DNA of 64,000 nucleotides from Sipunculus nudus (lineage: Eukaryota > Annelida > Sipuncula > Golfingiida > Sipunculidae), in NCBI GenBank assembly GCA_026874595.1, contig CM049316.1, positions 10,530,839-10,594,838 on the forward strand. Direction: 5' to 3'. A model generated the notes under the pieces. It did not search any database, was not told where the DNA came from, and saw nothing but the letters and a program-made list of their open reading frames with translations. The stretch's first letter is position 1; the number at the start of each line of letters is the position of its first letter. Below are positions 22,212-63,887 of the stretch, in pieces. Position numbers and translations under genes: made by a program.

Positions 22212-22456
22212 TTAAAATGTTCCAAAGCCCGGGGAACATTTGATGGCTTCATTAACAGCATCAGCAAACTCTTTCTGTTCCAGCCCTCGCGGGAGGGATA
22301 TCTCCATGCTGCAGGTCGAACAAAAGGGGTACCGGCCTTCCGCTTCCGGGTCATGGAAATGGATCTTTATTGGTCGACTAAACCCGCCAGGTGGCACTTC
22401 AGTCGAACCAGTAAGAAACTGAAGAAATTCTTGGAGGGTCACCGGATGCCTCCCAT
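22212..22456 (-). other. Catalytic-cysteine exon of HECT paralogue A
   Basis: This last coding exon (245 nt) encodes the HECT C-lobe tail. The pattern CSTCSMEISLP matches the T-C-x-x-x-L-x-L-P active-site signature, with Cys509 the predicted ubiquitin acceptor and an extra Cys three residues before it. A Gly-Phe-Gly near the C terminus matches the usual HECT end. The equivalent exon of paralogue B is also 245 nt. Confidence 0.88.
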
Positions 22457-30702: not shown

Positions 30703-33700
30703 ATGGGTACCAGCCACAGTCGCCCTGGAGGTTCGAGTCCTTTGGAGCAGCGCGGGAACGGAACAGGAAAGACCAGACGCAGAGCAGACGACAGTGACGA
30801 CGAGGAGGCACAAACAAATGACTACGATGGCCTGGAGCTCTTCGTCGCTGTGAGTACAGAGCGTCTTTTCGTTGTGTCGTAAAAGAATATATATATATTA
30901 AAGTATTAAATCAGTTTACGAAGACGCTTACAACATTCTGGAAGTCTACTTTTTCTCTCAGTTTTTACAGTTTGCTAATGTTTTGTACTTGCATATGATC
31001 ATACGCCAGATAAAATAACTATATATATATAGTTAAAATTGTAACTTTGTGTATTTTACAAAACACAGAGAGAGAGAGGGGGGTATCACTTCTTTGTCTG
31101 GGTAATATTAAAACACAAATGATTCTATACACATTGCTATCACTAATAAAAAGTAAGATGTTTACATATACGCTATCAGAACAGGTATGTTGTATTCAGA
31201 CGACGAGTTTAAGTGTATTACAGAGTCACTGAACTGGGTCACGCCTTGTTTATTGCAGAGAGACTAGCCCTGCGCATGTGTAAGTAAAGAACAGTACACA
31301 AACCGGCTTATAAGAATGTCTCGGGACTTTAAACCTTGTTACCTGGATCTTCTATACGCACGCGTATACAGATTAAAATCAATGTTCACATGTAAGAGTC
31401 AATAAAATACCCCCCCCCTGGTATAACGGGTCCAGTAGCGAAAAAAAAAAGAAATGTAAACAATACATTCCTGTGTTGCTGCTAACACCAGAACAGGAGC
31501 TATTTACTATTACAACAAAACTTAAAGTTTTGTGTAGTTGCCTTTTAGATATAATATACATGGGTTCCTGATACCCATGCATGCAAACCGGGCTGCCATC
31601 TGTACACAGTCATCTGTAGAGTAAATTCAGTAGAAGTATTATTATATGGCAAAACTCTGTTTTCTGGTTGCTATTTTTTTCAATTAAATATTGTTTGCAT
31701 CAAATAGTGAACATATGGTAAACATGGCAGCATTGCATAGCCAAATAACTGGTATTCATGCTACCATTCTTTAAATAACTCGTAAATCTTAACAAGGAAC
31801 GAATATATATAAGCAGACGCGGATCCAGGGGGAGGGTCACGGGGGTCCGGACCCCCCCCCCCCCCCTTTTTTTTCAGCTTACGCAGCCTTTTTAAAGGGT
31901 TCGGACCAATTTTTTCGGGCTGGACCCCCCTTTTCCTGACCCAGGGACCATTTTTTAGATTTGTTATTAGTCCTCCAGTGTTTGGACCCCTCCTTTTCCT
32001 AAATCCTGGAACCGCCCCTGATAGGGGTTGATGAGTTTATTTGTACATTGATATTTAGGTCAAAATTTGAGAGAGAGAGAGAGAGAGAATCGTTCAGAGC
32101 GAACATATCATGCTAGGGAACACGATATTTACCCAAAACAGATGTAGCACCCTTGTACTTCATTGGCTCCATACCTATAGAGGATGTAACAAACAAAAAT
32201 TATTTGTCTCTGGTATTTATTTCAGCTCATGGCACTGCAGCAGAGGGAAGCAGAGGAGCAGATGGCACGACAAAGTGCAGGACTGCACCACTTGGCGGCA
32301 GCACTGTCACTGTCGGAGGAACAATCCGCCGGGGTAGGTAAAATGGTATTAATCTTTTAAGTTTATTTAAGTTCAAATGGATCACTTGAAATATTTCACG
32401 TCGAAGTTGTTTATCTTTAATCTTTAGGATCAGAGGAACCATAAGGGCTACTTTGCCTCGGCGGAAAGCCCACAATTACCCGCCGAAGGATCGGGGTCCA
32501 TATTCTGCCTTGCGCGAACTTTTAGTTTTAACATTATGGCTAAGTCAGGAGTAAAGATGAAACAAAGATCGCTCGCTAGACCCGCTTAATAAACGACCTT
32601 CCATGTCAACGTTTTGATTTTTTAATTAGTTTCATAATTTTATTATAACAACAATATCCATTGTCAATCATGCAATTTCAGAGGTAAACGCCATTTGCTC
32701 TTACATTTATAATTAATTAACTTATCAAATAGACGTTTTACCCCAGGATTCGCCAATTTTATCGGAGCTTTGTCCAGACAAACAGTTAAAAATATTGACC
32801 GAGGACATCAACTGATTGACGATAGGTTGTTTGTTGAATACGGACAGTGGATAAATAACATTTATTTTTTAGAGTTCGCTGGTCAATTATGCATCATTTT
32901 CTTGAACCAGTTACTTTGAAAAATTTATTCGGCGATTACTCCTCCGGAAACGTCCCAACATAACTTCAAACTCCTTTCCAAGCCCCTAACGAGAGATTGC
33001 AAAACCTCATTCTTGCCCACTAAATAATCTAAGGAGAAAGCCAACTCGGACCTTACCTGCTCGTAAAACTTTCGATTAAAAGCCATCTATTCACATATAC
33101 CTTTTCTATGGAATTTAAATTTCTGGCTTAATCTCCCTATAAATTAATTAACTTTAGGCAATTCCTATAAATAAAATTCTTATAACATCACTGTAATTAA
33201 TATATGAGTTTTTTTTTATGAGTTGTTAGTAAACACAGCAATGTTGATGAAGGTAAAAACACCTAACATAAGGTGGTTGGTTGAATATGTGCGGAAATTG
33301 AAATGGTCATTAGTTTGCAAAACTCCTTTTGTAAACTCTGGTTCGTCTTTCCTGTCACCGGTTAGCGTCCTTGTTGAAAGTGTTTTGATTATCTTAGCGT
33401 TCCCCTACCTGTTATAAACAGACAGGTGGATATAATCATAACGAACAGCCTATGTGCGGTCGGATCGACGTTTTTTGGCGTATTTAAAAATCAATCATGA
33501 GGTTATCATAAGTTAATAGACGTCAGATATCGGAATAGAACACTTTAAACAAAAGTGGCGCACATGTTCATGATGCATATGACAAAAACATTATTCAGTG
33601 TTTATGAATCATGTTGTAGCTTACTCAGCTTAGCGGTCTTGATATTCTACAAGCGATGATGGAGATAGCTGAGGAGAAGGAAGAGGATGAAGTACGTGAA

Positions 33701-35599
33701 GCGCTGGAGACATCACAGATGGAATTTACTTCTCAAATCCCCCGCCAGGAAACCCCCAGAGCGTGGTCCACCATGGTCTCGCCGTCCCCCGCTAGACCGT
33801 CCTCAGCCCGCCCCGTCCGGCCCCCGTCAGTCCGACCATGGAGCGCCCGCAGCCAGAGCCGCGCAGGGACAGTGACGCCCAGACTGCCCGCAAAATACAA
33901 AGACCAGGAAGACGACTTTGTTGGAGTAATGCTTGAGTAAGCCTTCTTTTTTAAGCCATCATGAGGATTTCTTATCAGTTATTAAAAGTGAATTCAGTTG
34001 ACGTTATAACAGAAATTGTGAAGCATACTCTATATAAGGACTGACCATTGCCATGTTATTTCTGCATTTTACTGCTAGTAGATAATAAAACTACACTCTA
34101 AGGTTTTGCGCCATTTAGTTCCTTTATTCAGAAGGCGTTCATATTTAGACAAATTACAAAACAACAGCTGGGTAACCGTTTCATTTAGAGTTTACCAAAC
34201 TATGGATTGTTAAAAAATAATTTTGTTTATATTTATGGAAATAATGACAAACTGACGTGTTCTTAATGACAGAAAAATTATACTTGCAAATAATGGAAAC
34301 AAGAAAATCTCTGATGGGCTCGTTATATTCAATTTTTACAAAGAAAACGTGAATGGTGTTTTTGGAATCTTGTGATGTTCCATTGATATTTCATCCTCGA
34401 AATTGTTTCCCGGTTTTTCATTACAGTGACGATGACGTCGCAGAACTACTTTCGAATTATAAAGATCAGTGTAACACGGAGAGCGAGGTCATAGAAGTGG
34501 ATCGCGGCCAGGTTTTCAAGAGCATTCAAGGTCAAATCAAGAAGGAACAACTAGACCTGGATGCCGAATCTTTCATTAGTTTCAATGGTGAGGCGGGCTT
34601 AGATTACGGAGGGCCAAGGAGAGAATTCTTCAGGTGAGAAAAGTACAAACTAGAAATCTGCATCTAAGTGACTAAACATTTGTAAATATTCTTTGACAAC
34701 GTTCCTTAATCCGGATAATGGGCCGGATCCACGATCATCAAAATCTAATCAATTCTTCATTGGCTCATTCCCGAAAAGGCCTGAAAATTTCATGACATTC
34801 CATTCATGACTGCGATAGTTATGTTGTGGACAAACACACTCGCACACATGCAAACACACACACGATCGGGGTGAACGCATACTCCCCTGGCGATGGCAAT
34901 GCTGACAAAATAGTTCGAGAAGAATCCCAGTGTGTGTGCGAGCGAGTATGTTTGTGTGAGTGTTTTCTTTATAAGAAGGGTATAAATATTTAGGCAGAAA
35001 ATTGTAACCTTACAAAATGGATTTGATTTAGTGCTGCACCGAAGAGGTGAGGTCAATATTCTCTCTTGACTATCTACCTAAATATGTATACAACAAATCC
35101 TACTATGCCAGTTTGTGGCCTACTTTCAGGTACTCCACACCAGGAAACTGTGTAGAACAATATAAATAAAAATTTCCAAACGCGGGCTAGAACACGAAAA
35201 CTGCTTAAATGACAAATGGTGTTCTACTTGAAAATTGTTTACACACACAAAAAAAGGAGAAATATACCTTCCACTTTTTATGATGTTGGCACACTTGAGA
35301 GTTGTTTAAAATTCATTGTGCTCCGGCCAGGAGCCAAAGCAACAAACCAATTGGTCTTATGATATTTTTGTACTCACTCGATAGTACTAGAAATAACCTG
35401 CTAAAGGACAAGTGAATAAATGCTGAGGTGTGTGTGTGTGTGGGGGGGGGGGGGGCGACAGACTCAGGCTTTTAGAAAGAATGGGGTAGGGTCCAACTCA
35501 GACTAATGTGAAAAGGTCCTCTGGTCAAGGGTCATGCCCGCAAATAAAATTGTTTGAAAAACTTAAGAAGGCCGCTGCGGCTGGAAAAAGGGATCAGCT

Positions 35600-35657
<58 letters not shown>

Positions 35658-38600
35658 TGGTTAAATGTTATAAAGTCTTGAAAATATTAAGACAACTTAT
35701 AATAATCTATACACACGGGTAGCACTAAATTAGATGTACACATTTATATGATCAGAACGGGTAGGCTGTACGAAGGGTTTAAGTATATTACAGAGTCACT
35801 AAACTGGGTGACGCCTCATTTACCCATGAGAGACAAACCCTGAGTATGCGCGGCGTAAACATGTGTAGATGTAGATAATGAACAGTACACAAAACAAATA
35901 AGATAACAAATGTGACATTTATAACAATTTTACTTCAGCGAACTGCTACATAGTTTACAAACTTCTGGATTGTTCGAGGGCCCGGAAAGAAAAGTGACCT
36001 TCACCTACGACCACGGTAAGTTGGAGAATAAGGATTATTACGTTGCCGGGGTGATGGTGGCGTGGTCGGTCCTACACACCGGACAGGGCCTCCAGTGTCT
36101 GCATCCTCTAGTGTACGCCAGGATGGTGGGACAGGAGGATCCGAACGTCTGCATCTCCGACGTCCCCGACTACAGCGACCAGGAGAATATCCGCAGGGTA
36201 TGTTACCATGGAAATACACCAACTGGCAGCATGGATTTATTTAAAGTGACCTAGTCCTGCCTGGGCTTTAGTTTAGTATTTACGTTTGCTGTTAAAATAA
36301 AAAAATTGATCCCATATATACCGATAGACGTAACTCAATCCTAGCTCGATGAAATAATCGGCCAGAGAGCCGAGGTGGTAGTACCTGTTCTAAGTGTTGC
36401 GACACAGCAAGACCAAGTTTGATGGCTCATTTAGTGCGAATTATGTTTCAACCATTGCACTGACTGAGCCGATCTAAAAGTGACCGGGTCACATTTCACT
36501 CACAGACACTGACTAGAATTTTAATTTGGCAATTAAAATCAAGAATGTTAATTTAAAACGAAACACCTCGGTTATTTTTATTTGTTGGCCATTTTATTGG
36601 CCACTGAAAATCTACTTTTCACAGCTGAATATTGATGAAATGCAAAATATCAACACTTTCTAAACGTACGCCTGATTATATTGCAGCGTGTTAAGTGTTT
36701 TAACTCTGCTTTTTCACGTGTTTTTTTTCACGTGCATTTTAGGAATCCAACAAGCATCGCCAGGCTTTATTGCATGTACCAGATATACGTAAATATATCT
36801 TAAGACGGGGACAAATTCAAAGCCTACGTTAATCTTATGGTAAAACAATTATCTGGTTAGTCATCTGAACAAATCTATTTTTAGATTTACAAATTAAATT
36901 GCAGCACTTTGAATTAAAGTCTTTACCCACTTCGCTGTTATTCTAGACACAACCAGTCAATTTTAGTTGAACACATGTCCGAATCGATATCCCATTATTT
37001 TGATCGTTCCACCCCAGTGTTATAATGAACTCCCCCGAAACACCCCTCTGTGTAAGTTAGCCCCCCCCCCCCCCCCCCCCTGCAGAGATATGCAATAAAA
37101 ATATCTCCAGGTCCTGGGACCCAAAGCGAAACTAACTATATTCCGTCTCAGTCACGTGGACCATGGCGCGCGAAGGGATCAAACGTGAGTCGACATACGC
37201 GAATTACAATAGACGCCGCGACAGTTTGAACCGAAACTATAGCGCCCCAACAAGGACAGGCAGAATCTTTTTGACTTAAGCTGTTTTTTTCGAACATTCC
37301 GTGCTAAAAACAATTTCTTTGTGTTGCTCTATATTTACTTGGGGAAATCAATACACACTGATACGGATCATGGGTGTAATTATTATAATAATTAAAGTTA
37401 ATATAGTTATATAATTTATTATTATAGTTATATCCTTTTCACGTATAGGGCATTTTCTCGCCACGTGGAACGCATAATATGTGAACTTCTATGAATATTG
37501 TGTAACATATTTTGATTATTGTGTGTCACTCTCGCACATACATAGCTGAGGTGCGGACCGGACCGGACAACCCCTTGGTGGCCCCGTCCAACACATTTGC
37601 GGTCCGGTCCTGGTTCGGTTCAGCTCTAGGTGGTCTGGTCCAGTAGGTGGACCGATCCAAGCGGTCTGGTCCATTTAGTAAAATATAATTAAAAATAAAT
37701 TAATTTGTAGTTTATATTTAATTTGTTCAAATATTTAACAAAACCGAATATCACATGTCTACACTGCCAACAGTCCAATTAATGTAATGATATAATCTAT
37801 ACGTGAATCGCGAGACCTGGTTTGATGTTTAAACGACAAATTTAAAATCACAATATTTTTTGATTATTTGACAACAGTGGCATATTTTGTCTTATTGTGA
37901 GGGGCATGGTAGTGAGAGTATTAACCAAATTGTGTAGGGCTGTGCGAGCTGATTGAAAAAAAAATACTGGGCGGGGATGGATGCGGGTTGACTATATATA
38001 TAGGGCTATGCAATTGATGTAGTTACATTGTTTAACGGTTTAATGTATAGAAATTGCTCTTATTATACGTTGATAGACAGTGAAAATCAGAACACAGCAA
38101 GGGACACAGACTCCAATTCTGAACATGTCACTTCAATCATAAGTTAATAACAAAAATAACCATTTACAGTTATTCAGAGAACAAACATATAAAAAATACA
38201 CCAATATTACACTATTGCAGTTGCCATTGCTTTAAATACATTTATGTAGCTAAAAAGACTTCCTCTGAGATGTTAATTACACCTTGTTCATAACAAGATT
38301 TGTAATCTGAAACTAAATCCAAGTCATTTGTTTAGCATAAACCACTTAAAATTAGGTAGAGCCGTCCGGACTGGTTCGTTCAGGGATATGCGGAATAAGG
38401 GTCCGCACCCCTAAGCCACAGCGAAGACGCAGTGTTCGTATATTATTATAATGTTCTGTCTAATCACTCATATTAGCTCGCCAAATGTGAGACTTCGTCC
38501 GAGATTCGGTCCGTGACGTCAGAGCTGTTCGACTGGTTCTGTAATTGTGGCGTGCAGCCTGCTACACTAAAACTGAAGAACAGGGATGAAACTGTCAAAA

Positions 38601-40692
38601 AGCTCATCAAACACTTTGTCTACTTCAGGTACAGTTTAAATCATCTTTTTCTTTTCACTTATTCGTAAGCATTTTAATTATTTAATCCTGGTGCCCCATT
38701 TTTATACACCGAACGTTAAGGCATAGCAAAACTGGAAAACTGCATTCAAAGGAATGCAAGCTTCCGCCATGTCTGGGTCCTTTTTGTAGAATATGCTCCC
38801 CAACCCATGTTTGCATATACTTATTCAGTCAGTATTCCATGGTACATTCATGTGTTTGTGAATATTCCTTGATGACGTTCCTGAATCCGGATCATGTGCG
38901 GAATCCACATCAATATCTTATCGATTTTTCGTTGGCCCCTCCCGAAATGCCCTCAAAGTTTGATGAGGTCCCGTTTATGACTGAGTTATGTTTTGAACAC
39001 ACACAAACACACAAACACGAACGGGAATGAACGCGTATACCCGCTTGGCGGAGTCCTCGATTCATCCCAGACAAAGCATTAAATAGCTATTGGTCTCCTA
39101 CCTGGGATAATTCTATGAACAGTTTCATACTTATATACACATTTCCATACCAAACTTAGTGATATAAAGTTTGATAAGAAATGTCTTAGCAAACATCTCC
39201 AAAAAACAGTTGGATGATCATTAATAGACTCATCAATCCACTCTATACTCTCCATCAATCTTCCTATGGCTACATATGTTTTAGTCTGTGGAACAATGTA
39301 CCAGTCCATATCAGAAAGGTCGGATCGGTTATCACTTCTAAGGGATTTCTTGAGACATGCCTGTTTTTAGTTTATCAGAGTAACTCTTGATTCTATGGTT
39401 TTACAACTTTTTTACTTAATTTTTACGTCAAATTATTCAATTTATTTTATGTTATATGTTTTTGACCTTTTACTTGGTGTATAAGAGGAGTGTTATATAA
39501 ATCTAAATGTGGTATATTTTCAGGGTGATGCCGGCAGCAGACGAGTTTGCCAAGGGATTAGACCGCATGGGATTACTGGATCATCTCCGAGCTAATCCGG
39601 AGCCTGGTAAAGCCTTCTTCCTCTTCCCGTACTTGCAGCTGACCGCCACGCGGTTTATAGAACTGACTCGATTCTCATTCGACAGTCTTCCAACGAGGCA
39701 AGAAATCCATACCATCGATGCTCTGAAGAAATTCTTGCTTGAAGTTGAAGGTATGATCTCCAGAGTCGAGTTATCTTTAATTTCTGTATATTTGTATGCC
39801 CGTTATATAAACTGAATAATTAATTTTAACAGATAAAGCTGGGAGCGAATATTCTATGATTGATACTCTACGACAAGGTCTTAGTCAGATGTCATCCTCT
39901 GTGTACAATCCTTTAAATTATAATTCAAATTGTATTCGCTTTAATTCTTTTCACTTACCTATTAATTGCTGAGACCGCCATTGCCGACACGGTGGCCATG
40001 CTCTGGTGCCGTTAGCTTTGTTGAATTAAGCCGTACCAAAATGTAGTCAATAGGTCTTTTCCATGAGTGAGCTCTTTAAATGAGGGAATCCACAGCAGCC
40101 ACTATACCACCCGAGCAAGTTATGTCATTAACAGCCATACAGCATGAATAAGAACACATTTGGAAAAATCGAAATACCCTATTCTTGGTCTTGTGCCACA
40201 GGGCGTGGTGGTTACATACAGCAATGTCGGCCTTTTATTAGCAGTAGGTTGACTGTCAATGGGAATTTACGTGCTTGACCACTGCGGAAGTTCGTTTTGT
40301 TTCGCTGCATATGTATGTTCTTTTGTTTTAAACGTACAGCTTTATTTTTTTGCGTGTTAACTGAAAATTTGCGATCACATGTCTTACAGTATAAACATAA
40401 TACTTGCATTTAGTCTTTATGGTTACTTGTTTCTTATTCATTTACAGCTGGGAAACACCCCGTCACCCTGAGGCAAATGCTCCAGTTTATTACTGGTTCC
40501 CCGGACATACCACCAGGTGGCTTCACTATGCCTATCAAGGTCTACTTCCATGACCCAGACACGGACGGACGCTATCCACGGTGCGCCACCTGCAGTATGG
40601 AAATCACATTACCCAGTGGACTCTCGTATGACGAATTCGCTGACGTCATTAACGAAGCCATCAGAAGTTCACCTGGATTTGGCGTGGACTAG
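30703..40692 (+). CDS. UIM-HECT E3 ubiquitin ligase, paralogue B (8 coding exons)
   Basis: Coding exons: 30703-30849, 32226-32333, 33620-33936, 34427-34633, 35939-36197, 38477-38628, 39524-39750 and 40448-40692; the sum is 554 codons with stop (553 aa), no frame break, all GT-AG. It is the mirror-image paralogue of A, with the same phases (0,0,2,2,0,2,1). Order: MGTSHSRP leader that fits an N-myristoylation pattern, YDGLELFVA at the first junction, charged helix (50-85), UIM-like motif (103-121, core Val110, Ala113, Ser117), R-P-S linker ending PSVRPWSARSQ, then HECT (GLDYGGPRREFF near 248-260; catalytic Cys521 in CATCSMEITLP; end GFGVD). Expected role: cytosolic ubiquitin transfer. Substrates are unknown. 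A full-length HECT C-lobe and intact frames argue against a pseudogene. Confidence 0.92.
31065..31310 (+). repeat. Intronic repeat, copy 1
   Basis: This stretch in intron 1 of HECT paralogue B shares ATTACAGAGTCACT, AACTGGGT, ACGCC, GAACAGTACACAAA and flanking blocks with 35600-35905 in intron 4, both preceded by GA-dinucleotide runs. Either a transposed element or a local duplication would explain it. Confidence 0.6.
31814..32020. mobile_element. Short hAT-like MITE
   Basis: The left end CAGACGCGGATCCAGGGG and the reverse complement of the right end, CAGGGGCGGTTCCAGGAT, form imperfect terminal inverted repeats of hAT style. The interior is rich in GGACCCC runs with a long C/T homopolymer. 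No clear 8-bp target duplication was seen. It lies in intron 1 of HECT paralogue B. A related element lies at about 49133-49345. Confidence 0.6.
34690..34905 (+). repeat. Interspersed repeat copy 2 (ATCCGGATCA family)
   Basis: This copy lies in intron 4 of HECT paralogue B, just after exon 4. It matches copies at 29179-29455 and 38740-39056 but lacks their upstream GGAATGCAAGC block. Confidence 0.6.
35600..35905 (+). repeat. (GA)n tract and intronic repeat, copy 2
   Basis: About 50 bases of GA (35604-35653) precede a segment that resembles 31065-31310. The copy ends some 30 bases before exon 5 of HECT paralogue B. Confidence 0.65.
37035..38460. other. Intron 5 of HECT paralogue B, no internal gene
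   Basis: This part of a 2.3-kb intron holds a C20-type run near 37062 and a patch rich in GGACC/GGTCC repeats (about 37545-37680). The rest is AT-rich. No open frame has coding character. Confidence 0.5.
38740..39056 (+). repeat. Interspersed repeat copy 3 (ATCCGGATCA family)
   Basis: The fullest of the three local copies, in intron 6 of HECT paralogue B. It has the GGAATGCAAGC block at its left and the CTTGGCGGAG terminus at its right. Confidence 0.65.
40448..40692 (+). other. Catalytic-cysteine exon of HECT paralogue B
   Basis: The last coding exon encodes the HECT active-site region. Cys521 is codon 40591-40593 within CATCSMEITLP. Paralogue A carries the same CxxC arrangement. Size (245 nt) and phase match exactly. 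Confidence 0.88.
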
Positions 40693-41840
40693 TCACCACG
40701 TGGAGTTAATATTTAAATGCTTAGAGTTTCTGTTCAAATATTATTGGCCCACGTCAAATTAAATGGACATTTTTCCAATCAACAAAAAATGGTTCGAAAG
40801 TGATTTAAAGAAGAAAAGTTTATAAAGTGTCAATCTCGCTTCAGACACTTTTAGCAGCATTCCATTTATCATTCATATTAAAACCAGTGGGAATATGTCA
40901 CATGAATATATGTTTAACTCTTTTATATATTTAATATTTCGTTGTTTTGACATGTATAGCTACAGGTTTTCTATATTTTTCTCTTATACCAAATTAAGCA
41001 AAATGAAGTTAACCAATTATATTTTGTGTATTTTTTGTTATATCGCATGTCAACTGAGGGACCAGGAAACCTATTTTGATATTCTTTTTATAAGAATAGA
41101 CGCTTAAAACAACTGCTTATATAAGTGTTTTAAGGTGACATTCAGATATTATTAATACATCATGCCTGAGATTACGTGTTATGTGTAATGAAAACAGGTA
41201 TAAACTTTTGGATGGGCTGAGTTGATTGTAACAAACCTGTTTCATGGGTCTTTAACAGTAATATTTATATAGAATTACACTTACAAATACATGCCGTTGC
41301 ATTTGTTATTTGTCTTCCCAATTAATATTACTGCGGATGCGTAATAGGAGTCTATTTAAAAAACAAACCAATAAATTGTCTATTTAACCACGATAACAGA
41401 CGCTAAAATAAATCAGTTGTACAGTCTCAATAAGGCATGTTTACAGTCAGAAATTAATAATGACATGCACATTAAAAAGCTTGGGTTACAGCTTAAGGAA
41501 ATTGATTGTTACATGTTTGTATTTTGATTTATATTTATAAATATGTATATTATTATGTAAATCTTTATGAGTCTTGTTTCTATTAAAAACTTATATAAGA
41601 TTAAGAGCAATTTGATACAATCCCGACAATGCATATTTACATTTAACCCATATTATGGACGACATCATGTATATATGGGACTATATATTTCCCAATCCAG
41701 GCTCGTATCTGCATAGAAATGTATTATCTTTAAATTTCTGTGTGTTATTTTGTATATACTCTTTAACTTGTTAATATTTAAGTATTTCTTTCTGTTCAGT
41801 TCTATCTAATCTTGTGATATCAAGCTAAACAATAAAGCCC
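40693..41840 (+). other. Probable 3' UTR of HECT paralogue B
   Basis: AT-rich noncoding sequence follows the stop codon. AATAAA near 41831 (CAATAAAGCCC) is a plausible poly(A) signal, with earlier weaker candidates such as ACCAATAAATTG near 41368. Open frames here are random. Confidence 0.35.
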
Positions 41841-51279: not shown

Positions 51280-54200
51280 ATGGATCATGATATGGAAGAG
51301 TGTTACAACGCCACCCTGGAGGTGGCCAAAGAGGCCGGTGTGGTGAGTAAAACATTGTGCACAATACCAGTCTGGGACACGATGCTGGTGTAAAACACAC
51401 TTTAATGTCCCTGCAAAACAGAGAACTCTAGTAGGGCCTGCCTGTTTTCAGCAACCTGTGCAGGAGGATATCCTTTCACAAAACAAAAAATAAATACATA
51501 TAAACACAGAGATGAACAAACTGCAGGCCTATGGCCAAATGCAGCCAGCCATATGTGTTTTCATAGCTGGCAAAGATGTATACACAGAGATGTAATTCTG
51601 TTATACTCCATTAAATAAAGGCACAGACTGAGACTAGAGTATAATTCTATGGCCATGTTGTACAAAGAAATTGACAACAGTGATGGACAGCAAGTTTTCT
51701 ATCAGACAAACACGGAAAATATGAATAAGTTATTAAAGATTTGCCCATTTCAGATTAGATTCTTTCTTACACCCTGTAGGTTCTTGTCTATTTTGACAAA
51801 TGGCTGTAATTTTTTTGCAGATGATCAGAGAAGCGTTCAGTCAGGAGAAGAGAATAGAGACAAAATGCAGCGTGGCAGATTTAGTAACAGAAACAGACAA
51901 GGCAGTGGAGGATCTTATTATAAACACACTTAAAAAGAAGTTCCCATCTCACAGGTAAGTTTTGTGAAAAGCTGATGGTAAGCATGGGGGATTACATTTA
52001 TTCTTAATACAGATTAGAACTGGGTGATAAGCCTAAAACTAAATATAACCGTTAATGAATCAGTATGCATGATATCAGAACGATACAGGCAGTTCAACCC
52101 GCTATGATGTATGCTGTCTGTCTTGCTGCCATGTAATACAGGTTATACAAGCCCTGCAGCTTCCTGTGCTAACCAACTGGCCCCAGGGTGAAATGAAACG
52201 TTTCCTCAAGTTCCAGCCCAAAACTGCATCACTGTAACATTATCAATACATTACAAGGAAGACCTGCCTAAGGACCATGACACCAAGTATTGTCCCCTAC
52301 ATATTGTGTATGCATTATTATAAAACATTATTGTGTGTCAATGATGTTAAGGTAAATATCTGAGTGTCTGTATAAGTGGTTGGTAGCATGTATGATCATT
52401 TAATTAAAATATTGAGCCTCGTGGATTGTGTCTTCATGCACGTAGACCTATGGGCAGCCATTGCTGTCTGCGGTCCTAGGGGCTTACCTCAATTTAGGCC
52501 TGTATGAAGACATCATTAATGAAAGCAGTTATTAAAATATAAATATCGTTTGAATCAGATGATATAATATTTATATATTGTTATGCTATTTCAGTATTGG
52601 GCCAGGGAACATTCATATGATCCTTTGATGCAGGTTTAAAATACATCAAGATTCTGTTTGTACATTCATATCAATAACATGAAACATTCCCATTCTCAGA
52701 TATTATCATTGGGCAAACCTCCCTGAATCCATGCACTTTAGCAGTCATAATTGACTATACTGATCCATCCCTTCAGTTCCATTCGTGCAAGTCTGACTGT
52801 ATTCATCTTTAATTACAGAAACAAACTTGAATACCTATGGAGTACAGTGAAATTCTAGTGAGAGAACTACATGTACCACAGTACAAGCGCAAGCATTCTG
52901 ATATTCCTCATACAGTGAAACATTTTAAAGTACCATTATTTGTATGTCACCCAACTTGTATATTATAAACCTGTCTTCCTGATATAATATGGAATTATTT
53001 TTTGTTTTGTTTTCAGGGAGTAATTAAACATTTCTCAAAACTCAAATATTAACACAGGAAGTAAAAATGGAAAAAATAAACAGATGTTTATTAAAGTAAT
53101 TGTATTCCAAAAACGCTAAAATTATTCTGGTATTCTTTTGTATGTAGTTTTATAGGAGAAGAATCTGTAGCCGCCGGCCAAAAATGTGTCTTGACTGACA
53201 ACCCCACCTGGATTATAGATCCCATCGACGGAACGTCCAACTTTGTTCACAGGTAGTGGAAGCTTATCATTAATTGATCATTAAGTGATGAGGTTACAAT
53301 ATTAATTTCTGTTAGATGAGGGATAGCTTTATTCTTTGGAGCTGAGGAGGCAGGGATTAAATCAAGTTGAAGTAACCATGCTTATGAGACAGATCTGCTT
53401 TTCAAAATAAGTTGATACTTTGACCTTGAATCTATGACAAAGTTTTGGATACTTAGTAATTTAGAAAAATAGGAAAATTTTTTCAAAGAAAAAAATATTT
53501 TATATATCAGGACAACTGCTTTAATTGCTTGATTTTCAAAATATTATGTGATGTTGCAGTTCCCAGAGAAGGGATATTTATGATATCACATCTAGATTCA
53601 GTATATAAACTTTTGCATAGTGGTGAGCAATTACCTGCAAACCAAAACATGTACTGCTTCACCAGAAAAGTTTAAAAGATCAGATACCTTTATATAAATA
53701 TAAAGTAATTTAACAGAATCCTTGAATGACATAGTTCGCTTTTAGTCATCTGTTGTAATGACATACAATTTATTTTCATTTATGTTTGTATTTTTGATAG
53801 ATTTCAATATTTATATATGTATTTTTGACAGATTCCCATATAATTTTATGTATTTTGACAGAGTTTTATAATTATTTATGTATTTTGACAGATCTGTATA
53901 TTTATTTATGTAATTTGACAGATTTGTAAATTTATTTATGTATTTTTACAGATTTCCATATGTTGCTGTATCAATAGCATTGGTTGTCAACAAGAAGGTC
54001 AGTGATTATTTCAAAATTTAATCAACATGTGACTATTTTGAAATAAATAACTACTCAACAATGCAAAAACTTAAGGTTTTATAATTTGAAGGAGATTCCA
54101 GCACCTGTTAATTAATTATTCAGCTAATCATACCAGATTTTATCACACGTGTGATGACTTTTTGCATTTTGGCCATTTAGTTTGTCTTAATGTCACATTG

Positions 54201-57200
54201 AAAACTCTTCTATTCAGGTAATCAAATATTATCACTGCCCTTGCCTGTAAATATTCAGTCACAAAAAGATTTGCTTAACCTGGTCACTTTTCCATTGAAA
54301 CTTAGTTATTCTCAAATAGATAATCTAAATTCCTCACCTAAATGTATAATCAGTATTGAAAGAGTGGTCATTTAGCTTATAAAACCTAGGTTTTCTTTTC
54401 TATTTTAGATTCTAAAGCTATTTTAATGAGAGTTTTAGACTTATTTTATAAATACTTGTGGGCTGTAACTGATTCAGAAATCAGTTTTATGGAACATAAG
54501 AATCTGTGTTTATATAAATATGCTAATGGATAATATTTTGCGACATAATTTCAGACAGAGATTGGGTTGGTTTATAACCCCATCCTAGAACAAATGTTCA
54601 CAGCAAGGCCAGGCCATGGAGCCTTTTGTAATGGTGAAAGGTTAAAGGTCACGGGTAACAAAGGTCAGTCTCAAGATAAGTTTGGTTCACCTTGGCATGT
54701 CTAATATCTGTAAGCTTAAGTTACTGCAAGATAACTTTATACTTTAAAAAAATAAAAGCATTTATGTAGGTTTGTACTAATGTTATCTTGAATAGTCTGT
54801 GAACATTATGAATTTTCATAATAAATACTCCTAATGATGACATATTAAGCATTTGGATTTGCTTTCAGTATTGACATAGCCATTTCAACATGTCATGTTT
54901 TCTATTTTGTGTAATTTAATGCTATAGTTTGTAAATAAACAGATAAAAGTAATAAAAACAACATGTTAACTAAACTATCATTGTAACCATGATGCTGAAG
55001 ACATAAAATAATAATTTAAATGCAGGCTTAAATTTTCTTGATAAGACAGATATGACATATCTCTCAATGCCAGCAAATTAGTTTGTTGCTTTTTTAGGTT
55101 TATTTTTGGTGCTCCTAGGAATCTTTTATATGTATTACTTTTTACCAAAGATCTCAGTAAATCACTCATCTTGACTGAGTTTGGGTCCCAGAGAGTACCT
55201 GCTGTATTAGATTCAAGATTACGAACGATGAGGAAAATCATCGACCAGGCTCATGGGTAAGTGGTTTTCTGTATGCTTTTTCAGTTTTGTGCTATTCAAA
55301 AAATCTCCTTTTCACTTTTATATTGTCTTATAAAAGAAAAAGAAAAAAGTTACATAACTGTAAAATAAATATGTTATTCTAATTTCAAAATATGAAAATC
55401 ATAAATTTTGGCCACAGTATACAGAATAAAATTCAGTTATAAAAAAATAAATTCCATGTGTTTATATTGTCAATTTTTTCTGTTCTATTTTTTTTTTTTT
55501 ACTTTATATGAAGTAATTTGATAAACTAAAGGCAGATTTAGTTAATCAATATAAAGTATGTCAGTTTTAAAGGGAGCATTGAATGGACATAGACTTAAAC
55601 AAAAGGCATAAACTTTGACAAAAGGTGTTTATTTGCATTCATATATGTTTAAAATAAAATACAATAAATTTGTAAATGCATACATTGATTTGAATGCTTT
55701 ATCAAATCTATAAATTTAATAGAAGTGATTTTTGTGGCATGCTGTGGTTAGTAATAAGCTTTGTATTCTTCAATGTTGTTAACCAGAATCATTATTTGAT
55801 TTATGTGGATACCATTCTTTATATATATACGTGATAAAATGCTTTGTACCTGACTGTGAAGCCAAAGTGATAGGTACTCTGGTAAGATCTCCCAACTTTT
55901 AACTGCACCAAAGAACTGTGTTTGCTTGTTAACAGCTGGTAACAGGCTTCATGCACTACAGTAATGTTTTAACCTCAGGATAGAAAAAGAAAGGCACAAA
56001 CCTGTGCGCATGACTACAGCTTTCACCTTAATGATGTTACCTGGGTTTCAGTTACCTGGTACATCAAAATAACATACAAATTGATTATAATGCATACAGC
56101 ATCTCTCAGCACCTTTATCTTAGGCCAGCCTCCATCCATACATGGTAAAAAGGACTACATGCTGCTCTTAGGTTGAATCTGAGTTTGATAGCTCTCATTT
56201 GTGGTTATAATAACCTTTTGCAGTCTGTATGGGAGAAACAGGTTAACAAAATGACAGTATAATCTTGCAGGTTTTAGCACTGATTGTTTTATGCAAGGCT
56301 AGATAGTCTACGATTACATGAGATCCTTTATAAATGACTGCAGTATCACAAAACATTTAAGTATAGACATGTGCCCGGGCTTAATCTCAGCTTCTCCAGT
56401 GAAATATAGTCAAGAATGAAGTTACAGCATTTGTGAAGCTGGAATGATACAATATGAAAAAGACAATTTTCACTGTAAGAGTTTAGGTATATTACTTATT
56501 GCCCAATGTTGTGTTATTGCCAACAGGCTGTGGGAACTATTTAACCTGGACGGTAGGTATATTTATAGTACTGGGATCTCGGATTGTCGCCTGACAATTT
56601 TGTGTATTAACATGCAGTTTTGATGTAGATTAAATCCATTGTATTTAAGAGGATTTATCTTATAAGACATTTCAGGTGAGGAATATGCCCTCATGGTTAT
56701 GTCATTTATCTCTCATTTGTAGGCTCTGGGCTGAATAGTATTCACCACATTTTATAAATAGGCAACAATTTTAAACTTTCAGTTATACAACATTGGGCAT
56801 TGCTACAGTATATGATATACACATTTAACTGTTTGTTTGGCTTTATATTTTATTTTATAAAGAATTAAATGCAAACATGTAATTGTTTACAAGAATTTTC
56901 ATTATTATTATTACCAAAATTATGTCTTTTATGTGAATATTGTAAATATTGCTTGGTAACCAATACACTGGAATCTTATTAATTAAATGGAAGCTTTAGG
57001 GAGGAAATTATAGATATATAGGTTTGATTGGATGAGGTAAAATGATAGAATCCCTGAAGAAACACAATATGCAAGATAAGTATAAAGTACAGAAATGAAT
57101 TTTCAGTTTATAGAATACAGAGCAACCCAGTTTTATCAGAGGAATCTTGTTGCCTTGTAATTGCAGAATTCGTGATTTGGGTGCAGGTTCCCTCCACTGT

Positions 57201-60200
57201 TGTCAGGTAGCTTCAGGTTTAGCAGATGGTTATTACCACCAGCCGACCAATGCCTGGGACATCGCAGCAGGTGTCCTAATAGTAACAGAAGCAGGTGGTG
57301 TTGCCAGGTGCACATCAGGTACATCCCACTCTCCGAGCATATGATACTCTCCCATCCAAACTTATAGATTGGTACCCTGCTTTATTAATGTGGCTAAGTT
57401 CAGTGTATAACAAAGATAGGCTGACACCTAGATTTTCATTAATAGTGGGAGCATTAATGGAGCAGGGTACCAATCTAAAAACATAGGCCTGTACAACTCC
57501 TCAGATAAGCATGAATCTCATGTCAGATATGAAGTTATGCCCACTCTCCAAGCCTAAATCCTGTAAACTTTCAGCAAAAGTTTACCAACTTTGACAACTT
57601 TTTGCACATATGGCAATGTCCACTATCAAAGCATAAAGCTATGGGCATGTTTGGCAAGTTGCTTGGTTGGTTGTGAACAGAAGCTGGTTGCTGGATTGCA
57701 CTCAAATGCTAGTTGGTAAAAACAAAATGGCTTCTCTGAGATGAATATGCATATCTCTCAAGCTGAATATGCATTTTTCAGGACCATTGTAATTTGTGGT
57801 TGATTCATTTGTGCTTAGCTGATTCAGCTTGCTAAGGCTTAGGGATATCCTTCGTCCATTCAGTATGTCAGTCTTCATGCACATGTATATGAGTTATGGA
57901 GTTGACAGATTTTGCATGGCAGGTATGTAGACTAATAACTCTTACATTTAGTTAACAATTGTATGTTTAGCTCTGTTGAATTAATATGCACATAAAGCTC
58001 TGCCATGTTTGACTATAGTCTGCCTGCCTAGCCAGTGAATTGTTAGCAGGGCATGTATTTGTGTCTTTTAGGGCTATAAGCTTCTAGCTTGATATCATGA
58101 CAAGTTATGGTGAAATCTTAGAAATAAAAAATAGGTTAAAATGTTTTACATTCTACTGGATGTAGTTAAAAAGTGATAATGAGCACCATTAAAACCTTGT
58201 GACAGTGTTTGAGGAATCTTAACATACACCTGGCACAGGTCAATAACAGGAAAATAAGTAACCCAATTTTTTTAGCAACCCGGTGAGCTAATGCGATGGT
58301 GCAGCGTCGTCCGTCGTGCGTTGTCTGAACTTAAACCATAGCTATTTAAAAAAGGCAAGAGCTAGGATCACCAAATTTTTTGCAAATAATCAATCATCTG
58401 AAAAACTCTATCGGATTTTGTTTATTTTTTCCTAACTGCATTTTCTTAGATTTTATAGGGAAAAAAGCTAAAAAAGCTTTAAAGTCTTCTTCTCTGAAAC
58501 TGTCCAGCCAAATTGTCCAGTATTTCACAGAAATGATCCCTGGAACAATCTCTCTCAAATTTGTTCAAATGGTTCCAGTTTGGGGATTTTTGGCCAAGTT
58601 ACAGAAGGTTGAACTTAGTTATCTGTCCAAAAAAGCACACTAAAATTAAAATACCAGAAACGGCTAGAGCTATAATGACCAAATTTTATACCAATATTTT
58701 TCACATATATCATATCTGAAATTGAGGTATTAGTGGTGCCACCTACATTGATTTGTTTTTTACAAGCAAAAATGTAATTTTTAAACTCTTCTAGCTTATA
58801 CACTGATTTATGATGAAACTCTTTAGCTGATTGGTTTAAACTTTACAAGAATTATTCTTTGGTAGGGTTCTGCCAATTTTATAAGAATAGATTGGGTAAA
58901 TACGGCTTTAAAAAAGCATTGTAGCCAATTGAAAAAGGCTTTCTGTGTTTGAAAACAGATTTGACAACATGCTGAGTTTCAGCAGCCAAGTCAAGCGGTC
59001 ACTCAGTACAACCAGGTGGGGTCCAGACATCACCATGGCAACTGACCTAGCTCTGGCGGGTGTCTAGACTATGTGTCACAATGTGACACAATGTCTAGAC
59101 GCAGAATTCCCAGATTATTGGAACTATATCTTTTACCTGTTTGAAAAAAATTGGTTTGCGTTTTTAGCGAATCTGTGAGCATATGCAATTGTGTGGGGTC
59201 GTCCGTCCTGCGTCATAGCTATCTCAAAAAGGGCAGGGGCTAGCATCACCAATTTTTTTGCAAAAGATTTGTCATCAGTCATCATTTGTTTATTTTTTTT
59301 TCTAACTGCATTTTCATAGATTTTTGCACAGCGTCCATCTGTTCATCTGCCTTGGGATAAAAACACTCATATATCTGCATTGGTTGGACTTATTGACCTG
59401 AAATTTTGCAGGTTTATACATCCTTGGCAGCTTTCTTGATTTTAGGCAGGTGACGCCACCTACTTTCAAATTTATGCTGCAGACATCCAAGCTCATATGT
59501 CTGGAACCATTTGACCGATTGGGCAAACATTTTGCATGTTTATAGATCTCACATAGCTCTTCATCATATGCAAAACTGGTGGCGCCACCTGCAATCATTT
59601 TTGCACAGTATCCATCTGTTTGTTTGCCGTTGGATAAAATCACTCATACCTCGGCAGTGGTTTGACATATCTGCCTAAAATTTTGCATGTTTATACATCT
59701 TGGATAGCTTTCTTGCTTTTGTGGCAGGTTGGCGCCACCTACATTTATGTATATGCTGCAAACATTCAGGCTTATATTTCAGGACTGGTTTGACATATCC
59801 CCCTGAAATTTTGTGTGTGTATAGATCTCACATAGCTCTTAATCATAGACAAAAGTGGTGGCGCCACTTGCCACCTTTTTTGCACAGCATCCGTCTGTTT
59901 CTCTGCCGTGGGCTAAAATCACTCATATCTCAGTAGTGGTTTGACTTGGTCTGCCTAAAATTTTGCATGTTTATACATCTTGGACAGCTTTCTGGATTCT
60001 TTGGTAGGTGGTGCAACCTACATACACATTTCGGCTGAAGACATCCAGGCTATTATGCAACACACCTCACTCTATTTCCCCTTGCCACTCAATCCATGCC
60101 TTACTTCACCCGTCCCACTCTGATTTTGGCCGATTCAAGTAGTCGCTTGTTGACTACCCAAATTCTAGTTTTTGTGTTGTGTGCACCCATGCAAGAATTT

Positions 60201-63200
60201 CAGAAATGATGTTTGTTTAATTGTTTCGTGTTCTAAGTGTTTAGTACTTGCATTGTTCATATACATGTTACACATGTTCTTGAAAAGTTATGGTCCAGCA
60301 TTGAAGCATTATACCTGGTGTAATCTCATTGCACAGGTTCGCATTAGGCCTGTAGGCCTTGTTTATCAAAACTTAAAAATACCATATATGCAATGGGTTC
60401 TGGGGTGTGCAGTGTAGTTTGTGGCTTTCTTTGCTCTCAGGTTTTGCACACTTGTGACATAAATGAAAGTCATAGGACACTAGATCAAGAAAAGTGTAGT
60501 GTCTAAAAAATAAAAAGACGGTCTGAGTGCATTCAGGGAGTGTAACATCAGTACCAATGGACCAAATCCTGTATACTGTCAAAGTAGCTGGGATACAATA
60601 TGTGTCAAACTTGTTTGGTAAAAAAAGATATAATTTTTAGCAATTATCAATATGACACAGGGTTCAGACCTTCCTGTCTATGTATTTGACAGGATTCGGG
60701 GCCTTGGGTCGGCCGCTCTCAATATGTGTCTGGTAGCGGCGGGGAACATAGATGCGTTTTTCCATCAAGGCTTACACTGCTGGGATATTGCCGCTGCTGA
60801 GGTGGTAGTCAGGGAAGCTCAGGGCGTTGCCATGGATGTGACAGGTTGGTCACATGATCCACAAGTTCTGTCCATAGGAGCACTAACCTTTATTAAACCC
60901 TAGGTTTAGCATGGCATGTCACATAATGTGCTTAAGAGTAGGCCTGGCACAAGTTTTTATAGTTAACTGTGGTTTTGGTTTGATTTTCAACAACAAGTTT
61001 ATCATTGTCCTGTGTAAGATAAGTTAATTACACTTTATCCCTGAAAAAGGAAAAAAAAAAACAACGCGAGGTGTTGTTGCCATGATACAGTGCCACCAAG
61101 TAGTCTATACTTAATGTACAATGTGCTGCCCTCTGAAGGCAGTTGGTGGAACTACACCAGTATTTAAGCTGAATGCAACTTAAACCCCTATGGATAACCT
61201 TAACAAGCCTATGGTGAAAGCACTGTAATGCGGAGCATTTGACAGCCTAATTCAAATCCTGCCAGAGGCTTACAGCAAACTGGTGAAATCTAGATATATC
61301 CTTAAAAATCATTCAAATTTTTAACATTACTTATACAACAGACAGTGCCACCAACAGGCCATTGACCTTTCATTTAAAAAACACTTTACCCAGGTTTTAC
61401 TGATATAGCTTGTACTCTTCTTTGGGTCCAAAATATCTTTTTCCATAGTTTCAGAATACTGTAGTAGATGTGGGAACATAATTAAGCAGAACCTGTGGGT
61501 ATAAATAAAAGTTTGGTCAGGAATATAAGTGTTACAATGCACCATATGCAGTAACACACGGTGAAATGTCTTGTTCAGCTTAATACTCGACACATGGGAT
61601 TACGGTCAGTGGTGATGGAATCTTGTAATCGTAGCTAAGAGCAAGCTGTGTATGTGTGTGCTTGTATATGTTGGTATCGGTCAGACTTCAGCAGTGGTGG
61701 TTCTACAGTGCTTTGTCACTAACAATCAGCATTACAGTTCTTTTACTAAGGTGTAATGACACACAGCACATCAAAATGGCACTGGTTTTTACAATAGTGA
61801 GTACAATACAAATATCAAATTGAAGATTATAAACAAATTTAAAAAAAAGTACACAGCGAATTTATAGAAAACTTCTGTCAGATTTAGTAAAATTCATATA
61901 AAACAAAATCAGGGAAAGAATGATAATACATTTCAGTAATATCCAGTGCTGTTTTCTGTGTAATACTCTTGCTCCCCATCCTTTATCTCAGTGGTACGGA
62001 CACTTCCTCCCTTGAACAGTTAAATCCCCATGGTTTCCTATCCTTTGGCTTCATAATCAGTGATAGCGTTAAACATGACATAATCTGGTGAATGAATGAT
62101 GGCCATACCTTATTGTAACAGGATAAGGTGTACAGGCTCTGCAGCTATGTCTATGGTGCTGGTTGCCGCTGGTAACGCTGATGCTTTTTACGAGTTTGGC
62201 ATCCATTGCTGGGATATTGCTGCGGGGGATCTGATCGTTAGAGAAGCAGGGGGAACCGTTATAAACCCTACAGGTAATGTACTGTCAATGCTCAAAAACG
62301 TCACCACGTTTCCAGATTCTGACGGGGCTTCAGCTGTCTTTGATCTTTATCCACCTTTTAGAGTTCTTTTGTTATATTGTACTTAAAATGACCTTTATTT
62401 TATATGTCCTTGAACTGTCCTTGATCTTCAGAGTCTCCTTCAATTGTTAATATTTCATGGTCCTTATGAACTCATGATAATTTGATCTCACTCACTTTGT
62501 TTTAACAAATATTAACAATGGATTTGATGCGGATTTTCACATGAATGATTTTTACAGAATATATATTTTACATGTCTGAGTCCATTTGTCTCAGTCTGGA
62601 TGTAAGAGGTTTGAGTAAATAAATGCATGTTGTTGTCACAGATTACATAAAACATTACCTTTATCTTGTGTTCAGTAAGAACTCAAATTGTAAAGCATCA
62701 TTGAAGGATTTTAGCTCTTCTTTAAAGCCATACAAAAAGTACAAACTGCAAACTGATCAAAGGAGGCAATGTTAAGTTCTCTTTGTTCAGTCCTTTGTAA
62801 AGGTGACACAGTTACCGTGGTTTCTCCTGTGTGTCATCTGATTGTTTGGTCCACGTTCGATGTTTCACATTTCAATGCTCTTTGTGTCTAGGACAGCGTT
62901 AAATGTTGGTCGTGACTGTGCTCGTGGAAGTTGAGGCATCCCATCCCAAACAACTCAGAATTGTGTCATTGTAGCAGATATGATTCTGATCACATGAGTT
63001 TTGTTATTGCCTTATATAAATACTGTACTATGGTATATCAAAAACCTGTCCAGTCTGAACCACCTGATGTTTTTATCATCAAACAGAACACTGATCAGTA
63101 GTCTTTCATGCTACATATACATCTTGCTATATCATCCTTTTTAACTGAAACATACAAAGTTTAATACTCTTTTCCTACATGTTCATTTTATATTAAACTA

Positions 63201-63887
63201 AAAGTTGAATTTCCATTTCATCCTTTATTCCTTTCCTCACATGGGAGTTTGCCTTCAGTAATATTTTATCTATTTCTTTTTCTTGTGTACATTTGTCTGT
63301 CTGAACGTACTTGTATATTAGCATAAATATTTTGTAGGAAATGAACACCTAATTCTTTATTTCATCTTCAGCATATCAGTTTAAATGAGATGTATACTCT
63401 TTCTACCAATGAACATGGTTTCCTCTATTTGAATTCTTTAGTAGAAATATGCTGTCACATTTGATGATGAGTGAAATGAAAAATAATGAGGATTAAAGTG
63501 CAATGTTCACCTTTTGATATTCTAGAAAATAAGTAAATACAGGTTAAAACTTAAGATATATGTATTTTTTGTTTCAATGATTACCTTCCAACTTCTTGAA
63601 TATCAGTAATTTAGTTATTAGTGATTCCTGGAGTTTCAGAACTGTATAATGCATGTTGTTTTGTCACATTTGGTCATTAAAGAGGATTTAGACAAAAATA
63701 AATGATGTAATGTCTTGATTCACACCAATGACAACAGATTTCTCACTGTGTTATTAGTACTGATTTTGTTATTGTTGTAGGTGGCCCTCTTGATCTTATG
63801 GCACGGCGGGTGTTGTGTGCGTCATCTCAGGAACTTGCAGACCAAATAGTGAAGCAGGTAGAAGCTATAGAGTTTGAGCGAGATTAA
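51280..63887 (+). CDS. IMPA1: Inositol monophosphatase with three alternative seventh exons
   Basis: Constitutive coding exons: 51280-51342, 51821-51954, 53148-53252, 53952-53997, 54555-54663, 55151-55256 and 63781-63887, plus one of 57167-57318, 60693-60844 or 62122-62273. Any choice gives 822 nt (273 aa; human IMPA1 has 277). The enzyme is Mg2+-dependent, lithium-sensitive in relatives, and hydrolyses myo-inositol monophosphates for phosphoinositide recycling in the cytosol. Metal ligands are visible: Glu70 in FIGEES, Asp90 and Asp93 in [11 protein letters not shown], and the Asp of the C/A-W-D motif in exon 7 (219 here, human 220). Every junction keeps frame and uses GT-AG. The start is the first in-frame ATG, with an acceptor 50 bases upstream (leader exon inferred). 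The orthology call is by eye; IMPA2-like origin is possible. Confidence 0.93.
53791..53951 (+). repeat. 30-bp tandem array of the exon-4 splice acceptor
   Basis: Five copies of a 30-31 bp unit end at exon 4 of the IMPase gene: 53801-53831, 53832-53861, 53862-53891, 53892-53921 and 53922-53951. Each ends in a TTT(G/T)ACAG acceptor and most begin AT(T/C)(T/C)(C/G)(C/T)ATAT-like, resembling the first bases of exon 4 (ATTTCCATAT). The unit therefore spans the intron-exon junction. Confidence 0.85.
57167..57318 (+). CDS. IMPase alternative exon 7a
   Basis: The acceptor is TTGCAG and the donor CATCAG|GTACAT. The exon is 152 nt, entering in phase 2 and leaving in phase 1. It encodes [13 protein letters not shown], then [17 protein letters not shown] and TEAGG. 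It keeps the metal-binding Asp of W-D and the EAGG segment. It differs from IMPA1 in having Gly at the Ala196 position, His at the Glu213 position, and Asn-Ala where His-Cys precede W-D. It is the most diverged of the three, but has no stop or frame break. Confidence 0.85.
57365..57477. other. Intronic 25-bp stem hairpin after exon 7a
   Basis: AGATTGGTACCCTGC... at 57366-57390 pairs with ...GCAGGGTACCAATCT at 57452-57476. All 25 positions pair as RNA if two G-U pairs are allowed, with a loop of 61 bases. It lies 47 bases downstream of the exon 7a donor. It may be a splicing-control structure or a tiny palindromic MITE. Confidence 0.8.
58260..60060. repeat. Tandem-core interspersed element between exons 7a and 7b
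   Basis: A left block (58276-58460: GTGAGCTAATGCGATGG, GTCGTCCGTC, CTAACTGCATTTTC) is partly repeated at 59167-59325. It is followed by about 2.7 copies of a roughly 278-bp unit whose landmark TTTTTGCACAG occurs near 59322, 59603 and 59878, with GGCGCCACCT and AAATTTTGCATGTTTATA in each. The left terminus resembles, inverted, the end of the element at 11340-12908. No protein is encoded. Confidence 0.7.
60693..60844 (+). CDS. IMPase alternative exon 7b
   Basis: The acceptor is TTTGACAG and the donor GTGACAG|GTTGGT. The exon is 152 nt with the same phases as 7a and 7c. It encodes [17 protein letters not shown], then [13 protein letters not shown] and [13 protein letters not shown]. Overall it is very like IMPA1, with C-W-D and MDVTG intact, but it has His at the Glu213 position and Gln in place of the second Gly of EAGG. 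Confidence 0.9.
60905..62115. other. Intron between exons 7b and 7c
   Basis: AT-rich noncoding sequence with no repeats of note. The minus-strand frame 61593-61327 lacks coding character. A search by eye found no obvious docking and selector sequence pairs of the kind that control some mutually exclusive exons. Confidence 0.4.
62122..62273 (+). CDS. IMPase alternative exon 7c
   Basis: The acceptor is TTGTAACAG and the donor CCTACAG|GTAATG. The exon is 152 nt with the same phases. It encodes [17 protein letters not shown], then [17 protein letters not shown] and VREAGG. It keeps Glu at the Glu213 position as well as C-W-D and EAGG, so it is the version expected to give a canonical inositol monophosphatase. 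It is nearest to the final exon (63781). Confidence 0.9.
62400..63780. other. Last intron of the IMPase gene
   Basis: AT-rich noncoding sequence ending in the acceptor TTATTGTTGTAG. No further copy of exon 7 was found here by eye. Confidence 0.5.

Follow-up and report, generated by a model that had tools for sequence, protein, structure and literature searches.

Three putative mutually exclusive versions of exon 7 in an inositol monophosphatase gene of Sipunculus nudus

Why would a gene carry the same exon three times, must its transcripts use only one of the copies, and what would the choice change in the protein? These questions are raised by a gene for inositol monophosphatase (IMPase) in the sipunculan Sipunculus nudus. 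IMPase recycles inositol for signalling and is a putative lithium target. The gene, which is of the IMPA type, occupies positions 51280-63887 on the forward strand of the stretch that we analysed, 64,000 nucleotides (nt) of contig CM049316.1 in assembly GCA_026874595.1 (positions 10,530,839 to 10,594,838 of the forward strand; here, the window). An original prediction, made from the letters of the window, named three equal-length seventh exons and proposed that exactly one must be used. We found that the reading frame supports this proposal and that the three exons differ at a residue of the active site that recognizes inositol.

We located the exons by tblastn with human IMPA1 and then read their boundaries. 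Exons 1 to 6 and exon 8 were each found once, and exon 7 was present three times, as exon 7a (57167..57318), exon 7b (60693..60844), and exon 7c (62122..62273), all on the forward strand. Each is exactly 152 nt long, as predicted to the base. The introns of the gene model run GT...AG, and each variant is preceded by CAG, has CAG at its 3' end, and is followed by GT. Exon 6 (55151..55256, 106 nt) ends in phase 2 (GG|). After exon 6 each variant supplies the last base of a GG|N glycine codon, and its exit into exon 8 (63781..63887, 107 nt) is in phase 1. Exon 8 finishes a glycine codon and adds 34 residues and a stop codon; the phases proposed for entry and exit hold at these joins. The variants also encode the same segment, as had been claimed, and they resemble each other far more than chance would explain. 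Within the window they found each other by tblastn (E values of 2e-17 for 7b/7c, 2e-11 for 7a/7b, and 9e-9 for 7a/7c), and each exon alone passed the PF00459 cut-off of 27 bits, with 53.1 (7a), 54.5 (7b), and 66.4 (7c) bits. The whole-domain scores of the 7a, 7b, and 7c isoforms were 283.5, 286.9, and 298.3 bits. The constant part of the protein is identical to human IMPA1 at 117 of 223 aligned residues, and the best solved relatives of the 7b isoform are mammalian IMPA1 and IMPA2 (E values down to 1e-100).

The full protein of 273 residues is read in three of the eight possible inclusion patterns, which are the single-variant ones. Omitting every variant gives 191 residues and a stop 13 nt into exon 8. 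Joint inclusion gives a premature stop in all four patterns, 108 to 260 nt upstream of the last exon junction. All three variants joined make 456 nt, which is divisible by 3, and exon 8 is still misread, with an earlier stop within 7b. The mRNAs from joint inclusion should be targets of nonsense-mediated decay. The claim that skipping all three exons or using two of them breaks the frame was thus correct, with the frame lost in five of the eight patterns, including the one with all three. Only single inclusion gives the full protein, and we consider it quite likely that these are three functional, mutually exclusive exons 7 in one IMPA-type gene.

What would the choice of exon change? Residue numbers below are those of the human enzyme, by alignment. 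The constant exons carry Lys36, Glu70, Glu71, Asp90, Ile92, Asp93, Gly94, and Thr95, and exon 7, which contributes to the substrate pocket, carries positions 194 to 196, 213, and 217 to 219 and the metal ligand Asp220. The metal ligands Glu70, Asp90, Ile92, Asp93, and Asp220, with roles described in PMC4954947, are present in all three isoforms. Arg191, Gly194, Trp219, and Asp220 are kept in all three variants. Exon 7c, the canonical variant, has Ser195, Ala196, Glu213, His217, and Cys218. Exon 7b differs from it in the mapped residue set only at position 213, which is His, and so keeps Gly194, Ala196, His217, Cys218, and Asp220. Exon 7a, the most diverged variant, has Ala195, Gly196, His213, Asn217, and Ala218. 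In humans, position 213 is Glu in IMPA1 and Gln in IMPA2. According to PMC2080633, Glu213 binds the C3 and C4 hydroxyls of inositol, and Glu or Gln at this position is a mark of inositol-1-phosphate-specific enzymes, with Asp, His, Ser, or Thr found in dual or fructose-bisphosphate enzymes; use of fructose-1,6-bisphosphate is also tied to a shortened beta9-alpha6 loop. Exon 7c carries the mark of the inositol-1-phosphate-specific enzymes (Glu), and exons 7a and 7b do not (His).

We compared position 213 with that in prokaryotic relatives. At least 591 stretches in genome contigs matched our patterns, 576 were confirmed, and the best 80 were kept. Among these best 80 of 576, position 213 was occupied by Glu 75 times, by His and Gln twice each, and by Ala once. 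Glu213 formed part of one of the six search patterns, so Glu may be slightly over-represented. Asp220 and Gly194 were present in all 80, and position 196 was Ala in 78. A first scan of the genome contigs with the alignment of the three isoforms gave six stretches, none of them confirmed, and none of the 63 stretches that fit a pattern in viral contigs was confirmed.

The copies are well diverged. In pairwise comparisons, 76 to 91 of 150 nt were identical (a difference at 39 to 49% of bases), as were 22 to 30 of 50 residues (44 to 60%). Exon 7b is identical at 30 of 50 residues to 7c and at 30 of 50 to human IMPA1, and 7c matches human IMPA1 at 29 of 50. The human IMPA1 and IMPA2 segments share 23 of 50. 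The introns that flank 7a, 7b, and 7c have short AT-rich matches (about 25 to 33 nt) but no repeat family in common; the shared family sits inside the exons. Given this divergence and the lack of a repeat family common to the introns, the duplications look old rather than like an assembly error. First and second codon positions were better conserved than third positions in all three pairs (63/100 versus 18/50, 60/100 versus 16/50, and 73/100 versus 18/50; Fisher p = 0.003, 0.002, and 2e-5), with 16 to 18 of 50 third positions identical between copies. In a tree of 18 rows and 52 columns, whose rows include 12 of the 80 bacterial sequences, 7a joined 7b with support of 87/92; the tree did not place 7c and the human sequences firmly. 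The longest branch, at 1.87 changes per column, is that of 7a. With modest support from 52 columns, 7c may have been the first to diverge, followed by 7a and 7b.

We then asked if the genome holds a second such gene. A second site for exons 1 to 6 or 8 was not found within the window by tblastn (best E value, 0.23), and no convincing IMPA1 match was found in the 20 kb at and beyond its end (best E value, 0.067, at 24% identity, which we took as chance). We searched the genome (1.43 Gb in 153 contigs, with the window on contig C11) and scored only the best candidates, so that more distant family members, such as bisphosphate nucleotidases, may lie beyond them. The full protein gave 20 matches at E values up to 1, namely nine exons of the C11 gene (exon 4 was missing) and eleven intronless genes, ten of these on contigs C61-C90 and one on C128. 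The DNA of 7c had one match. The 7a protein matched 7a, 7b, 7c, and the C128 gene only, and exon 3 matched itself and the C128 gene only. Exon 7b was matched only at its own place in the full-protein and 7a searches. No second IMPA-type gene was found among the best candidates in the host part of the genome.

The intronless loci are probably bacterial, judging by base composition and neighbouring genes. In the seven of eleven that we read, G+C was 48% (six loci) or 55% (one), versus 37% in the window, and open frames adjoining two of them (L090 and L099) resemble, by eye, a transporter permease and a glycerophosphodiesterase. Ten of the matches (L090-L099) are alike, with 32% identity, one in-frame TGA each, and G+C of 48% in the six read; they lie on nine contigs (C61, C62, C66, C72, C74, C77, C83, C89, and C90), two of them on C61. 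The eleventh (L084, C128:26687-27442) is an intronless frame of 278 residues, 40% identical to the host protein, in surroundings with 55% G+C. It is likely a bacterial inositol monophosphatase inside the assembly.

These results suggest the following model. Exon 7 of a single IMPA-type gene would have been duplicated twice in tandem, and each pre-mRNA would use exactly one of 7a, 7b, and 7c. At a minimum, the cell could enforce this by degrading mRNAs that contain two or three of the variants, with a regulator picking the exon. The constant exons would supply Glu70, Asp90, Ile92, and Asp93, and the chosen exon would supply Asp220, the 194-196 loop, and residue 213. The 7c isoform would then be an ordinary inositol-1-phosphate phosphatase. 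With His213, the metal centre would be preserved in the 7a and 7b isoforms, but the side chain that recognizes the C3 and C4 hydroxyls would be lost, and these isoforms may select less strictly for inositol or act on different phosphomonoesters. Exon 7a has more changes in the pocket and near the loops of the dimer interface, and we speculate that this variant is the likeliest to act on a new substrate or to play a regulatory part within mixed dimers. One gene could thus probably make three enzymes that differ at the inositol-recognizing residue. We put the chance that exon choice switches substrate recognition at close to even, on the basis of residue identity. For the whole reading, in which an animal with a single IMPA-type gene relies on three exclusive exons instead of duplicating the gene and switches position 213 between Glu and His, so that one phosphatase is inositol-specific and the other two have different substrates, our estimate is about 0.45.

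How would one exon be chosen? We rejected steric hindrance as the mechanism of exclusivity, as the introns are 1.3 to 3.4 kb long. We also rejected U2/U12 incompatibility; the donors of exons 1 to 7c begin with GT, the acceptors are AG, and by eye there is no U12-like donor. Weak donors do not mark the alternative exons, as each variant has 7 of 9 consensus matches, versus 6 to 9 in exons 1 to 6. In published work, decay of joint products is one contributor to exclusive splicing (PMC6071210), and 60% of the human mutually exclusive clusters studied in PMC5740500 contain exons not divisible by three.

Several observations weigh against our reading. In this one genome we found no docking/selector pairing common to all three variants that was clearly beyond shuffles; in four set-ups, with 15 shuffles each, 1, 9, 14, and 2 shuffles equalled or beat the best docking pairing. 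On single branches, first and second positions evolved more slowly than third positions in 87% (7a), 79% (7b), and 93% (7c) of 2,000 bootstraps, with third positions saturated. We also simulated neutral copies of 7c, counting a copy as intact if it stayed open, kept WD, and had at least 22 of 50 identities, with unchanged length not counted. At 0.2 substitutions per site, 20% were intact before insertions and deletions (indels). Finally, the beta9-alpha6 region (SuhB 150-190, approximately human 135-175 by our own conversion) lies in constant exons 5 and 6 and is gap-free relative to human and bovine IMPA1, with a sole gap of one residue near 183. Exons 7a and 7b therefore have only half of the combination of a dual IMPase/fructose bisphosphatase, a substituted residue 213 with a loop that has no deletion. 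We therefore expect a relaxed or shifted monophosphate specificity for the predicted 7a and 7b isoforms and not fructose bisphosphatase activity.

The exons could also be exclusive and all isoforms act on the same substrate, with the switch tuning expression, stability, dimer pairing, or the response to metal or lithium. This is possible, if doubtful. Exon 7 encodes the beta10-alpha7 and alpha7-beta11 loops at the dimer interface (PMC2080633), and in simulations of human IMPase the incoming magnesium ion touched Glu213 (PMC4954947), which would both suit such a role. In contrast, the change falls on the very side chain that recognizes the ring, and His is rare there in relatives (2 in the best 80 of 576). 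Another alternative is that only 7c is used, with 7a and 7b left over as relics from old duplications. Exon 7c does have the best Pfam score (66.4 versus 54.5 and 53.1 bits), 7a combines the longest branch with several unusual residues, and a young neutral copy could look intact, as the simulation at 0.2 substitutions per site indicated. However, 7a and 7b have stayed at exactly 152 nt, open and with splice signals, and 7b is as near to human IMPA1 as 7c is. The same simulation left few intact copies at greater distances, with 5.5% at 0.36, 1.2% at 0.5, and 0 of 3,000 at 0.9 substitutions per site, and the chance of no length change was 0.4% at 0.36 substitutions per site and lower beyond, assuming one indel per ten substitutions. 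We regard relics as unlikely.

It is more improbable still that 7a and 7b are parts of separate genes, each with a first or last exon of its own, an alternative that the original prediction had itself raised for first exons. The introns of 1.3 to 3.4 kb offer room enough, but no convincing second exons 1 to 6 or 8 turned up in the window, in the 20 kb downstream, or among the best candidates in the genome. Least credible is that the assembly is in error or has placed allelic copies in tandem, and we found nothing in favour of this. The copies differ at 39 to 49% of bases, and their flanking introns share only the short AT-rich matches described above.

Is this arrangement new? Three adjacent homologous 152-nt exons in the same phases, whose joint inclusion gives no functional protein (a premature stop in 4/4 patterns), have two features of a mutually exclusive cluster. 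Tandem-duplicated exons of the mutually exclusive type have been described before, and metabolic enzymes are among the cases; this enzyme is apparently a new one. Mammalian ketohexokinase is likewise a metabolic enzyme with usually exclusive exons, 3A and 3C; its C isoform has a higher affinity for fructose, and exon use is tissue specific (PMC6464065). It is, however, a kinase with two such exons instead of three, and its exclusivity was shown by RNA, whereas ours is read from the frame. In vertebrate OGDH, another metabolic enzyme, exclusive exons 4a and 4b give calcium-insensitive and calcium-sensitive forms (PMC7969005). There, too, the exons are two, and distant branch points in a size-restricted intron enforce exclusivity, in contrast to the introns of 1.3 to 3.4 kb here. 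Tandem duplication is, as here, the presumed origin of the alternative exons in the insect Dscam, Mhc, 14-3-3zeta, and MRP1 arrays (PMC6071210). For those arrays docking/selector RNA pairing has been described, which was not clearly detected here, and they are not small-molecule phosphatases. Human IMPA1 and IMPA2 also differ at residue 213 (Glu and Gln) and differ about as much in the exon 7 segment (23/50 identical), but their variety comes from two genes and not from three exons of what is apparently the only IMPA-type gene. Consistently with the original prediction, which knew of no description for this enzyme, we found none of exclusive exons in inositol monophosphatase or IMPA1 in the listed open-access titles and the starts of their abstracts, a search that leaves subscription papers and genome databases uncovered, so that an automatic annotation may exist. 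Neither IMPA nor inositol occurs in the main text of PMC5740500.

The remaining exons of the gene all lie on the forward strand. Coding exon 1 (51280..51342, 63 nt) has the ATG start, ends in phase 0, and has a GT donor; alone it is a weak tblastn match (E value of 27, 30% identity), and its position and frame are correct. Exons 2 (51821..51954, 134 nt), 4 (53952..53997, 46 nt), and 5 (54555..54663, 109 nt) rest, like exon 6, on tblastn and boundaries. Exon 3 (53148..53252, 105 nt) has 89% identity in tblastn and contains the motifs GEES and IDPIDGTSN, with Glu70, Asp90, Ile92, and Asp93. Directly 5' of exon 4, at 53793-53951, a 30-nt unit is repeated about five times, with TTTGACAGAT-like copies of the acceptor of exon 4 (TTTTTACAG|ATTTCC). 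By eye, use of the copy 30 nt upstream would add ten in-frame residues without a stop, and the next copy upstream meets TAA. At 57362-57480, beginning 44 nt past the 7a donor, lies an inverted repeat of 29 nt with 90% complementarity and a spacer of 61 nt, perhaps a hairpin or a small mobile element. The intron between 7a and 7b also contains a repeat block at 58269-60060 with copies at a period of 277 to 279 nt. If the 7b donor were left unspliced, 19 more residues would follow and then a stop near ATTAAA (60845-60903), so 7b could in principle be a last exon.

Elsewhere in the window, open frames on opposite strands at 22000-26900 (reverse) and 33600-41000 (forward) encode similar protein segments and suggest two related multi-exon genes. 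A segment at 40414-40689 (forward) matches the end of the HECT domain (PF00632), and four other tested segments of the pair matched no Pfam family. A single long open frame at 14040-14798 (forward) encodes a sulfotransferase (PF00685, 171 bits). A tRNA scan and Rfam at gathering thresholds found nothing in the window.

Should exon use follow the prediction, splicing would determine which phosphomonoesters the IMPase isoforms of this animal remove. The Glu213/His213 pair would form a natural series on an otherwise identical protein and would test the role of residue 213. If true, this would be a clear case of exon duplication achieving what vertebrates did with two genes.

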